From contig JAKSKX010000014.1 of the NCBI GenBank assembly GCA_024401535.1, forward strand, positions 1 to 64,000: a stretch of DNA of 64,000 nucleotides. The letters are read 5' to 3'. This DNA comes from Paludibacteraceae bacterium (GTDB lineage Bacteria > Bacteroidota > Bacteroidia > Bacteroidales > Paludibacteraceae). Numbering within the stretch: position 1 is the stretch's first letter; every line of letters begins with the position of its first letter. The notes beneath the pieces are model-generated. The model worked only from the letters and a program-made list of their open reading frames with translations. It made no database searches and was not told where the DNA came from. The position numbers and the translations under genes were made by a program. Shown here in pieces: positions 24,941 to 45,660 of this stretch.

Positions 24941-24956
24941 TGGCACGCTATTTGCA
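24941..24956 (+). promoter_or_regulatory. Sigma-54 promoter, copy 1
   Basis: TGGCACG-N4-TTGCA, an exact match to the RpoN -24/-12 consensus with invariant GG and GC at the right distance. The GC at -12 places the TSS near 24967. No gene start follows for 250 bp, while an intrinsic terminator does. Confidence 0.88.
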
Positions 24957-24966
24957 ATTTAATATA

Positions 24967-25118
24967 GCGAACACTTGACTTTGTGAAGAGTTGGTGTTCT
25001 AGTTTAGTCCTAATATTATAAATCCTTTTTGTACTACAGTATTAAGTAAACATGTAGTGTTATTTTTTTGAATTAAATCGTTGGTAGGTTTATCCAATTC
25101 CTGCCAACGCTTTTAATT
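24967..25118 (+). ncRNA. Candidate sigma-54-dependent small RNA, copy 1
   Basis: About 150 nt from the predicted TSS to the terminator. A 5' hairpin (GAACAC / GTGTTC) carries TTGTGAA in its loop. Then comes a block at 25000-25038 (TAGTTTAGTCCTAATATTA..., then AATCC, T-run, GTACTACA) shared almost base for base with a second locus at 45588-45622 on the other strand. No reading frame is conserved between the two copies. The locus lies between dnaG and the DprA-like gene. Existence of the RNA is inferred, while promoter, conserved block and terminator are seen. Confidence 0.72.
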
Positions 25119-25120
25119 TT
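25079..25120 (+). terminator. Terminator of sRNA copy 1
   Basis: Ten-bp stem CGTTGGTAGG / CCTGCCAACG (one G-U pair) and an 11-nt loop, followed by CTTTTAATTTT. Confidence 0.85.
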
Positions 25121-25216: not shown

Positions 25217-26092
25217 ATGAAAGACATTCTCAACTTACTTACAATCCAGAAAATCAAGGGATTCGGCCAGTCTCGCATCAAGTCATTCTATTCACCAGAA
25301 CTGACTGACGAACAAATTATGCTCTATACAAACACACAAAACTACCTGGCACTCAAGCAGGAGACATGGAGGGAGATGTCAGTACTTGAAGGCTATGGAA
25401 TCAAGGCTATATCATACCTGAACGAACCATTGAGAGGCATAGCTGACGCACCTATGGTGCTGTTCTATAAGGGCGACATATCGCTGCTTAACAAAGACAT
25501 ACTCAAAGTCGCAGTCATCGGCACAAGGGACTTCACACCCGAAATCGAGGAGAAAGAAAGAAGAATAGTAAGGGAAATAACCAGGCAGGCTGTGACAGTA
25601 AGCGGCCTTGCTATGGGGTGCGACGCCATAGCCCACGACGAGACAATCAGGAGCGGAGGAAAAACCATAGCCATACTGCCATCCTCAATCCAGACAATAA
25701 AGCCGGCAACGAACTACAACCTGGCACAGGAGGTGCTGAGGACCGGGGGGCTTCTGCTCAGCGAATACATGTTCAACGCCACAGCCACATACGAAATCAA
25801 GCACAGGTACATAGAAAGGGACAGACTCCAGCCGCTGTTCTCGAACGGTGTGCTTCTATGCGCAAGCAAAACCGACGGAGGCTCCAGAATAGCCGTAGGC
25901 CACGCTTCAGCGATGAACAGACCGGTCTGCGCACTCGACTTCGGGGACACCGGCACGGACCAGAGATTCGAGCTGAACAGGAAACTTGTCAAGGAAGGAA
26001 CAGCCTCAAAAATAGACACTTGCGAGGATATGGCAAGGTGGCTTGAAAGGGTTAGGGAAACAAGACCGGCAACACAGCTGAGCATCTTTTAA
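25217..26092 (+). CDS. DprA/Smf-like DNA-processing protein (short form)
   Basis: 291 residues. The Rossmann core of DprA is present from ~95: LKVAVIGTRDFTPE, VSGLAMGCDAIAHDETIRSGG, KTIAILPSS, LLLSEYMF, and ASKTDGGSRIAVGHAS. DprA loads RecA on single-stranded DNA in natural transformation. A helical N-terminus (~1-90) replaces the usual SAM-like domain, and no winged helix follows the core, so the protein is ~80 residues shorter than a typical DprA. It ends in QLSIF, which matches the beta-sliding-clamp binding pentapeptide. DprA-like proteins also occur in phage-defence settings, but no partner gene is adjacent. A 25-codon frame (25130-25207) lies just upstream. Confidence 0.85.
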   Translation: MKDILNLLTIQKIKGFGQSRIKSFYSPELTDEQIMLYTNTQNYLALKQETWREMSVLEGYGIKAISYLNEPLRGIADAPMVLFYKGDISLLNKDILKVAVIGTRDFTPEIEEKERRIVREITRQAVTVSGLAMGCDAIAHDETIRSGGKTIAILPSSIQTIKPATNYNLAQEVLRTGGLLLSEYMFNATATYEIKHRYIERDRLQPLFSNGVLLCASKTDGGSRIAVGHASAMNRPVCALDFGDTGTDQRFELNRKLVKEGTASKIDTCEDMARWLERVRETRPATQLSIF

Positions 26093-44472: not shown

Positions 44473-45309
44473 TTATATTTCCACTTCGCCTTCGAATACG
44501 GTAGTTGCCCCACCGGTCATATAGACGTGATTGTCGCTCTCTCTCCATTCGATTGTCAAGTCACCTCCACGCAAGTGAACGGTAACTGTTCTGTCAGTCA
44601 AACCATTTAGAACACCTGCAACGCCTACGCCGCAAGCACCTGTGCCACAAGCCATAGTCTCACCTGCCCCACGTTCCCAAACACGCATCTTGACTTCCTT
44701 TCTGCTTATCACCTCGACGAACTCAGTGTTAGTTTTGCGAGGGAATGCAGAATGACACTCGTACGAAGGTCCTATCTTTTCAAGATCTAGTGAATCTATA
44801 CCTGTTGTGAATATAACCGAATGAGGGTTTCCCATACTCACGCAAGTTGTCAAAACCTTCTTGCCAAGCACCTCTATCTCCTGAGCCACAACCTTGCCCT
44901 TGTCAAAGATTGTCGGGATATTCAAGCCTTTCAATATAGGTTCACCCATATCCACAGTAACAGTCTCGACCTTACCGTCTGCACCTAGGTGGACATTCAG
45001 AACCTTAGTTCCAGCCAAAGTTTCGAGAGTGAAGCTAGTCTTTTTAGTCAGACCTTTGTCATAAACAAACTTAGCCACACATCGTGAAGCGTTACCACAC
45101 ATCTCAGCCTCGGAACCGTCCGAGTTGAACATACGCATACGGAAATCACATTTCTCGCTAGGCATAATCAAGACTAGTCCGTCAGAACCTATACCTGTGT
45201 GTCTGTCACTAAGTTTTATAGCAACATTCGAAATGTCCTCTATTTTTTCTTTCGAAGCATCTACATAGATGTAGTCGTTCGATATCCCGTGCATTTTTGT
45301 GAATCTCAT
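44473..45309 (-). CDS. dapF: Diaminopimelate epimerase
   Basis: 278 residues. DapF interconverts LL- and meso-diaminopimelate using two cysteines as acid and base: Cys71 in EMCGNASRC and Cys221 in MACGTGACG. Other family marks are [14 protein letters not shown] at the N-terminus, [35 protein letters not shown] and [10 protein letters not shown]. Both halves of the pseudo-symmetric fold are present and length is normal. It is transcribed first and dapL follows, so substrate made by DapL is used by its upstream neighbour's product. Confidence 0.97.
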
Positions 45310-45525: not shown

Positions 45526-45564
45526 CAAAATAAAAAACGGGATAAAGTATTTCTACCTTATCCC
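45526..45564 (-). terminator. Terminator of sRNA copy 2
   Basis: Minus-strand stem GGGATAAGGTA / TACTTTATCCC with a GAAA tetraloop (one G-U pair), followed by GTTTTTTATTTT. Confidence 0.93.
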
Positions 45565-45660
45565 ATTTTTCAACTACAACTTTCATTGCAGTACAAAAGG
45601 ATTTAATATTAGGACTAAACTACAAAAGAAACTCCGTTTCACAACGCAATGTCTTTACGC
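45530..45660 (-). ncRNA. Candidate sigma-54-dependent small RNA, copy 2
   Basis: About 130 nt, in the 463-bp gap between tex and dapF. The order matches copy 1: sigma-54 promoter, 5' hairpin region with TTGTGAA (45638-45644, minus), a conserved block at 45588-45622 (TAGTTTAGTCCTAATATTA, then AATCC, T-run, GTACTGCA), and an intrinsic terminator. Hairpin arms and the terminator differ from copy 1 while the block and loop are kept, which is the pattern expected of an RNA family. A 23-codon frame overlaps the 3' part (ATG followed by AAAGTTGTA) but is absent from copy 1. Its downstream end lies ~220 nt before dapF. Confidence 0.72.

Follow-up and report, generated by a model that had tools for sequence, protein, structure and literature searches.

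A multi-copy family of candidate sigma-54-dependent small RNAs in one genus of Paludibacteraceae

The genome of a Paludibacteraceae bacterium, whose contig JAKSKX010000014.1 includes the 64,000-nt stretch analysed here (the window), carries five copies of a structured RNA unit. Computation establishes the RNA family, the promoter element that precedes it, its secondary structure and its regulon context, and the comparative evidence supports well the reading of the unit as a small RNA (sRNA). We judge it rather likely that each copy is a stand-alone RNA of about 110-150 nt, induced by stress from a sigma-54 promoter and acting in trans, with a near-invariant block as its antisense seed. Its probable role is that of an RNA arm in the response to stress from protein damage.

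Promoter elements, copies and loci

Copy 1 is preceded by an exact sigma-54-type element with a -24 TGGCACG and a -12 TTGCA (TGGCACGCTATTTGCA; 24941-24956, + strand), which confirms the perfect promoter described in the initial annotation, and copy 2 is preceded by its equivalent on the other strand, likewise an exact match (TGGCACGCTTTTTGCA; 45686-45671, - strand). These are the only two exact matches to TGGCACG-N4-TTGCA in the window; the chance mean of 4.6 per window refers to matches with up to two mismatches and is not applicable to exact ones. Throughout the source genome (2.96 Mb in 69 contigs, 91.5% complete) the exact pattern occurs seven times and its reversed form not at all. Five of the seven sites stand before RNA units (copies 1 and 2 in the window, a tandem pair on contig C9 and one copy on C45), one lies 5' of a gene for a small putative secreted protein, and one within an apparent coding gene. 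Sigma-54 promoter geometry sets the distance of the start site from the -12 element, and on this geometry transcription would begin at 24967 (+) for copy 1, 11 nt past the A of TTGCA, and at 45660 (-) for copy 2. The 5' hairpin of copy 1 begins 2 nt past its predicted start.

The units were collected with a covariance model, R1, built from six sequences in a trimmed alignment with a structure set by hand; an RNAalifold structure obtained on alignment A2 was dropped for its poor consensus, which lacked two-sided changes. R1 recovers all five copies in the source genome with E-values of 4.6e-6 or better, so that the two copies first annotated are both present but are not the whole set. Among 358 genomes of the family, the same search, of the kind which the initial annotation had proposed, returns 20 copies in nine genomes, and these are all nine genomes of the genus: five copies in the source genome, two in each of seven congeners and one in the eighth (64% complete).

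A more permissive form of the element, TGGC[AG][CT][GA]-N4-TTG, lies upstream of the block, within 90 nt, in all 20 copies from the nine genomes. Where the distance was measured, in 12 distinct sequences, the -24/-12 element and the block were 49-67 nt apart. The expectation that TGGCAC-N5-TTGC would precede further copies holds exactly for the source genome, where the -12 box is TTGCA in five of five copies, but not for the 15 congener copies, none of which has the -12 C (their boxes read TTGTA, TTGAT or TTGTT). A further TTGGCA often lies a short distance 5' of the element in the congeners. The loss of the -12 C and the second TTGGCA speak for the element as an operator bound by a different regulator, instead of a sigma-54 site, an explanation to which we give very little credence: spacing and letters are those of the textbook promoter in all five copies of the source genome, rpoN and its activators are present, and five kinds of gene found behind the element belong to the experimentally mapped sigma-54 regulon of Flavobacterium psychrophilum.

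Within the unit, a 5' hairpin with a GNRA-like loop is followed by the 27-nt block, a second hairpin and a terminator hairpin. The block (UAGUUUAGUCCUAAUAUUAAAUCCUUU) is identical in 19 of the 20 copies, the exception being copy 1, whose candidate antisense seed, UAGUUUAGUCCUAAUAUU(AUA)AAUCCUUU at 25000..25028 (+), contains a 3-nt insertion unique to that copy; the 27-nt block of copy 2 lies at 45596..45622 (-). Written with gaps as TAGTTTAGTCCTAATATT[ATA]AATCCTTTT[T]GTACT, the block extends over 25000-25035 (+) and recurs at 45622-45590 (-), as had been noted from the letters of the window. The same gapped pattern occurs in two more places on another contig, and the fifth copy is divergent and stands behind a perfect site.

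The loci of the source genome are flanked by a primase-like gene and dprA, by a Tex-like gene and dapF, by glutamine synthetase III and an mnmG-like gene (the tandem pair), and by a pair of ORFs without names, the genes named without a Pfam result being what we take them to be. Copy 1 and its putative terminator are followed by a DprA-like gene (25217..26092, +; PF02481, 3e-41), and copy 2 by a diaminopimelate epimerase gene (44473..45309, -; PF01678, 2.8e-63). The tandem copies 3 and 4 occupy L037:1450-1920. In the congeners, a single locus is common to the A-type copies examined; most B-type copies lie 5' of an MFS transporter gene, and once the neighbour is a restriction gene. A SAM-II riboswitch (L011:1133-1191, -; 56.7 bits) lies near copy 5 on the opposite strand.

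Since copies 1, 2, 4 and 5 each have a co-directional gene about 100-350 nt downstream, the unit might be taken for the untranslated leader, or an attenuator, of the genes that follow (dprA, dapF, mnmG-like). We find this most improbable. The downstream genes differ among the four loci of the source genome and from those at the A- and B-type loci, terminator hairpins stand 3' of the RNA, and each of the tandem copies has a promoter element and a terminator hairpin of its own. What was found instead is a stand-alone unit, with a promoter, a conserved structure, a terminator (weak in copy 1) and no shared ORF.

Conserved structure and terminators

Folding supports a structured RNA at every copy tried. 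Copy 1 folds with a z-score of -4.5 against its own shuffles, and all eight RNAs folded were more stable than each of their 200 shuffles (z -3.2 to -7.1, to which the terminators contribute). When the 20 model matches (10 of them distinct) were aligned, 98.2% of cells were paired, and seven of the 11 pairs had changed on both sides, compared with zero to two for control structures slid along the alignment. The covariation score was 0.547, compared with 0.254 in shuffles. Out of 500 shuffles none was as high on these measures, and six were as high on further pair types; the alignment was fitted to R1, which favours the model structure in these comparisons. Helix 1 has two-sided changes in three of its four pairs, and the helix of the second hairpin likewise covaries. 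With 20 copies in nine genomes, the element before each of them, covariation in both hairpins and RpoN in every genome, the original reading of a structured non-coding unit behind a sigma-54-type promoter is supported.

The loop of the 5' hairpin reads GUGA or GAGA and in some copies contains an additional U. The hairpin appears in the minimum-energy fold of five of eight RNAs in one set (missing from copy 5, L020 and L021) and of six of seven in a second (missing from copy 5). In copy 1 it is placed, with a GUGA loop, at 24969..24999 (+) by the fold and the covariation of helix 1, and in copy 2, with the same loop, at 45625..45656 (-) by the folds. The second hairpin of copy 1 (ACUACA...UGUAGU, 25033..25058, +) is assigned by the family model, whose match spans 24978-25058 with 64.7 bits; in the minimum-energy fold of this copy, part of the block pairs downstream and replaces it. 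That of copy 2 (CUGCAAU-GAAA-GUUGUAG, 45573..45592, -) is seen in the folds and by covariation, within an R1 match at 45573-45647 of 97 bits. In five of seven folds the block itself forms a weak hairpin with a CCUAAU loop, followed by an open UCCUUU; copies 1 and 5 differ. The block hardly varies, and this hairpin is a prediction from folding.

The intrinsic terminator claimed for the unit is clear in copy 2 (45531..45572, -), where a terminator scan called it with 19 pairs, and is weaker in copy 1, where the strict scan made no call. The putative terminator of copy 1 (25079..25120, +) is a 10-bp hairpin (25079-25109) whose loop measures 11 nt, followed by a broken T tract, as read from the fold.

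The invariance of the block also keeps the frame FCSLVLILNPFVL open, and a very short peptide could be encoded by a stress transcript in this frame through the block. With an ATG, GTG or TTG start, the ORF is 12-25 residues long in copies 1, 2 and 4, and 25 in the A-type copy of L172. However, four of seven copies (copies 3 and 5, A24 and B20) have no such ORF of at least 10 residues in the FCSLVLILNPFVL frame, the near-identical tandem copies 3 and 4 differ by a frame-shifting base, copy 1 truncates the frame, and the stems covary by base pairing. We regard a peptide product as highly unlikely, and the exclusion of a gene product in the initial annotation agrees with our finding that no ORF of at least 10 residues is common to all copies examined.

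Distribution and relation to known RNAs

The RNA was found in one genus only, contrary to the suggestion that Prevotella and Bacteroides genomes might carry it. R1 found no copy in the 349 family genomes outside the genus, and among 393 order-wide genomes (in which the source genome and some family members were included) a credible match in the source genome only; both searches used stricter filters. Relatives with a diverged block would escape these searches. Four weak order-wide matches (E 0.03-0.1) were rejected, as the pattern search gave no promoter element before them and one fell in a direct-repeat array. This array, around position 1500 of L244 (-) in another Bacteroidales genome, is the source of a spurious R1 match. 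In the source genome, a weak match on C68 (E 0.2) was rejected since no promoter element was seen, and another on C17 (E 3.7) lies antisense to the 5'UTR of an esterase gene and was the source of the target lead described below.

Pattern searches were run beside the model. Seven stretches in the GTDB 220 contigs matched TTGGCACG-N4-TTGNA followed after 30-60 bases by TTTAGTCCTA, and they belong to metagenome-assembled genomes labelled Bacteroidales, Paludibacteraceae or Candidatus Scybalocola fimicaballi. With mismatches allowed, TAGTCCTAATATTAAATCC matched in 19 of 101 genomes; the matches in the 10 genomes outside the genus (13, against 7 for the reversed pattern in all) were attributed to chance, and no -24/-12 element was seen there by eye. 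The exact 33-nt block had no match in IMG/VR. At the gathering threshold, Rfam returned only four tRNAs in the whole window and only the SAM-II riboswitch in the five loci, and for copy 1 at E up to 10 it gave five chance-level matches, none of them credible. Rfam includes a Qrr model. In the literature, consulted mostly outside subscription papers, we found neither an RNA of this sequence nor anything on sRNAs of Paludibacteraceae.

The closest system is that of F. psychrophilum, a member of the same phylum. According to the accessible part of that study, its motif SM4 comprises -24/-12 elements and marks the promoters of groESL, lon, dnaK, grpE-dnaJ, htpG and clpB, as well as those of other exported-protein and gliding genes and of one putative regulatory RNA, Rfp36 (PMC9723704). 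The genus studied here resembles it in having -24/-12 elements before groES(L), lon, dnaK, htpG, clpB and an RNA, and in having a sigma-54 activator gene that adjoins lptE there and an lptE-like gene here, so far as the same text describes it (PMC9723704). It differs in that a single RNA is described there and a five-copy family with a near-invariant block here, and in that grpE lies behind SM4 there and was not seen behind the sites here; Rfp36 is likened to our family by description and not by sequence (PMC9723704, in its accessible part). A sigma-54 chaperone regulon is thus already known in Bacteroidota, and chaperone genes were enriched in predicted sigma-54 regulons of the phylum in a 2025 survey, as its available text reports (PMC12316311).

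Multi-copy sRNAs are also known in Bacteroidales. In the portion of the report available, the FopS RNAs of B. thetaiotaomicron form a multi-copy sRNA family which is bound by the RRM protein RbpB, pairs near mRNA start codons and has been deposited in Rfam (PMC11697453). From that portion (PMC11697453), FopS and GibS share with our family the organisation as paralogous copies in which a seed is conserved and the flanks vary, but they are transcribed from sigma-ABfr or PM2 promoters, whereas the element here is of sigma-54 type, their seed lies in a single-stranded 5' stretch, whereas here a 5' hairpin comes first, and they are bound by RbpB, whereas PF00076 occurs in none of the nine genomes here. 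The terms RpoN and sigma54 were not found in the available main text of PMC7366714 and PMC10994844. The view that no RNA of this kind had been described in Bacteroidota therefore stands as regards Rfam, which has no match, but not as regards the kind of RNA, in view of Rfp36 (PMC9723704) and the multi-copy sRNAs (PMC11697453), as far as the accessible parts of both go. The RNA family is new, within a known kind of system.

Outside the phylum, two multi-copy families offer further parallels. Vibrio Qrr1-5 are near-identical sRNA copies with their own sigma-54 promoters and a shared seed, gated by an activator; they differ in serving quorum sensing through LuxO and Hfq, and the parallel drawn here is one of organisation. 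Listeria LhrC1-5 are induced by envelope stress and pair with ribosome-binding sites through CU-rich loop motifs, but they are controlled by LisRK in Firmicutes and not by sigma-54.

Regulon context and proposed mode of action

The machinery for sigma-54 transcription is present throughout the genus. One RpoN (PF04552) is encoded in each of the nine genomes, and strong matches to PF00158 occur in all nine, two of them in the source genome; the remaining matches are weak (E 6.5e-9 or worse). The first activator (L143:5767-7011, on C67 of G000) is a receiver-AAA protein of 414 residues with a strong counterpart in nine of nine genomes. Pfam detected no DNA-binding domain in the protein of the source genome, for which reason it may act on sigma-54 promoters from solution. 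The second, a 424-residue AAA-Fis protein, is encoded next to a gene that we take to be lptE-like and has a strong counterpart in five of eight congeners, the three that lack one being the least complete genomes.

The pattern TTGGCAYNNNTTTTG has 105 matches in the nine genomes against 4 for its reversed form. Sorting of 104 of these (one, on C19 of G006, was left out) gave 89 distinct sites, including one at an unrelated locus. The RNA follows 15 of the 89, and chaperone or protease genes follow 17: dnaK (4), groES (5), lon (5), clpB (2) and htpG (1). A further 21 precede four other protein groups (beta-helix proteins, 7; TPR lipoprotein-like proteins, 5; small secreted proteins of two kinds, 5 and 4), and 36 carry no label, many of which lie inside coding frames and a few of which are probably missed members of these groups. 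One representative of each chaperone or protease group was confirmed with Pfam, and the other labels were assigned from N-terminal motifs. The source genome has 10 matches, four before the RNA, three before lon, clpB and dnaK, and three elsewhere; copy 1, which carries ATTTG, is not matched by TTGGCAYNNNTTTTG.

Look-alike putative secreted proteins of about 90-100 residues (L149:2397-2696, -; L210:313-612; L067:3800-4069) are in several cases encoded behind sites of this type, and the gene of L067 lies just 5' of a B-type RNA copy. Those of L149 and L210 had no match in Pfam or NCBIfam. A right-handed beta-helix protein (PF13229; L174:3-1454, -) lies behind the same promoter type and has look-alikes in other congeners.

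The presence of dnaK, groES, lon, clpB and htpG in the regulon points to protein damage or envelope stress as the most likely signal, and this link gives the sRNA reading a more specific form than it had in the initial annotation. Induction of the RNA by stress is read from these co-regulated genes, and, as sigma-54 promoters of this kind would fire through an activator, the RNA would be made only on a signal. Counted against stress induction is the heat response of Chlamydia, in which, as described in the accessible part of the report, the activator of rpoN rises but rpoN itself falls (PMC8762339). Nitrogen control was considered for the tandem copies, which follow glutamine synthetase III, and was dropped, since no such gene precedes the other copies and chaperones belong to the regulon.

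The search for targets covered the first half of the block, through its ATTAGGACTAAAC complement. In the source genome, a putative esterase (PF00756) is encoded behind a promoter-like TAtaTTTGC box, and the 5'UTR of its gene contains a 13-base exact complement of the block. The predicted duplex has an energy of -18.4 kcal/mol; for 1000 shuffled blocks the mean was -7.7 (sd 2.5) and the best value -19.2. Outside the RNA copies, this is the only exact site for the 13-mer in the source genome, and there is none in any of the eight congeners. With up to one mismatch, the ATTAGGACTAAAC complement of the block has 59 matches in the nine genomes, of which 20 are the family's own copies; the reversed pattern has 147. 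A depletion of targets was rejected as the meaning of this difference, for the forward pattern contains TAG/CTA words, which are rare in bacteria. The start of ackA matches the block at 15 of 16 bases in six congeners, and was dropped as a conserved target since the match does not rise above codon constraint, its lack of synonymous change being expected by chance (P about 0.13). No long conserved target for the first half of the block was found in the nine genomes.

These results bear on an explanation in which the RNA is also made from a sigma-54 promoter, with the near-invariant block binding a protein in the manner of a sponge and not mRNAs. CrcZ and 6S act as protein sponges, and the identity of the 27-nt block in 19 of 20 copies, the absence of a conserved long mRNA complement for its first half and the similar display of the CCUAAU loop and open UCCUUU in five of seven folds would all fit such a role. 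On the other side, RRM_1 (PF00076), the one RNA-binding family searched for, was found in none of the nine genomes by a search in which a Bacteroides control was positive, and no longer array of repeated motifs was seen. We consider a sponge unlikely, though less so than a leader, a peptide or an operator of another kind, and continue to favour antisense pairing in trans.

For such an sRNA, the following course of events can be proposed. One of the two enhancer-type activators would switch on, the likely trigger being protein damage or envelope stress, and RNA polymerase with sigma-54 would transcribe each copy. The RNA would fold into the GNRA-type 5' hairpin, the near-invariant block, the second hairpin and the terminator. 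The block, in most copies a weak hairpin displaying CCUAAU and then an open UCCUUU, would pair near the starts of target mRNAs, and this pairing could lower the translation of the targets while chaperones rise. The presence of several copies may serve dose and speed. As a tentative and more specific proposal, sigma-54 control of chaperones in this genus might include a non-coding arm in the form of a Qrr-like, multi-copy sRNA which works free of RRM-type RNA chaperones and, as the protein chaperones are induced, silences the translation of many mRNAs through twin UCCU motifs.

In enterobacteria, sigma-E sRNAs do likewise for outer-membrane proteins. To our knowledge, heat-shock regulation in Bacteroidota is little worked out and few sRNA regulators have been studied in the phylum. 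A chaperone-linked RNA family offers a handle on both, in that its start sites are predicted, its seed is defined, and one sigma factor and two candidate activators come into question. If the proposal is true, the pattern of a stress sigma factor coupled to a repressing RNA would extend to sigma-54 and to Bacteroidota.
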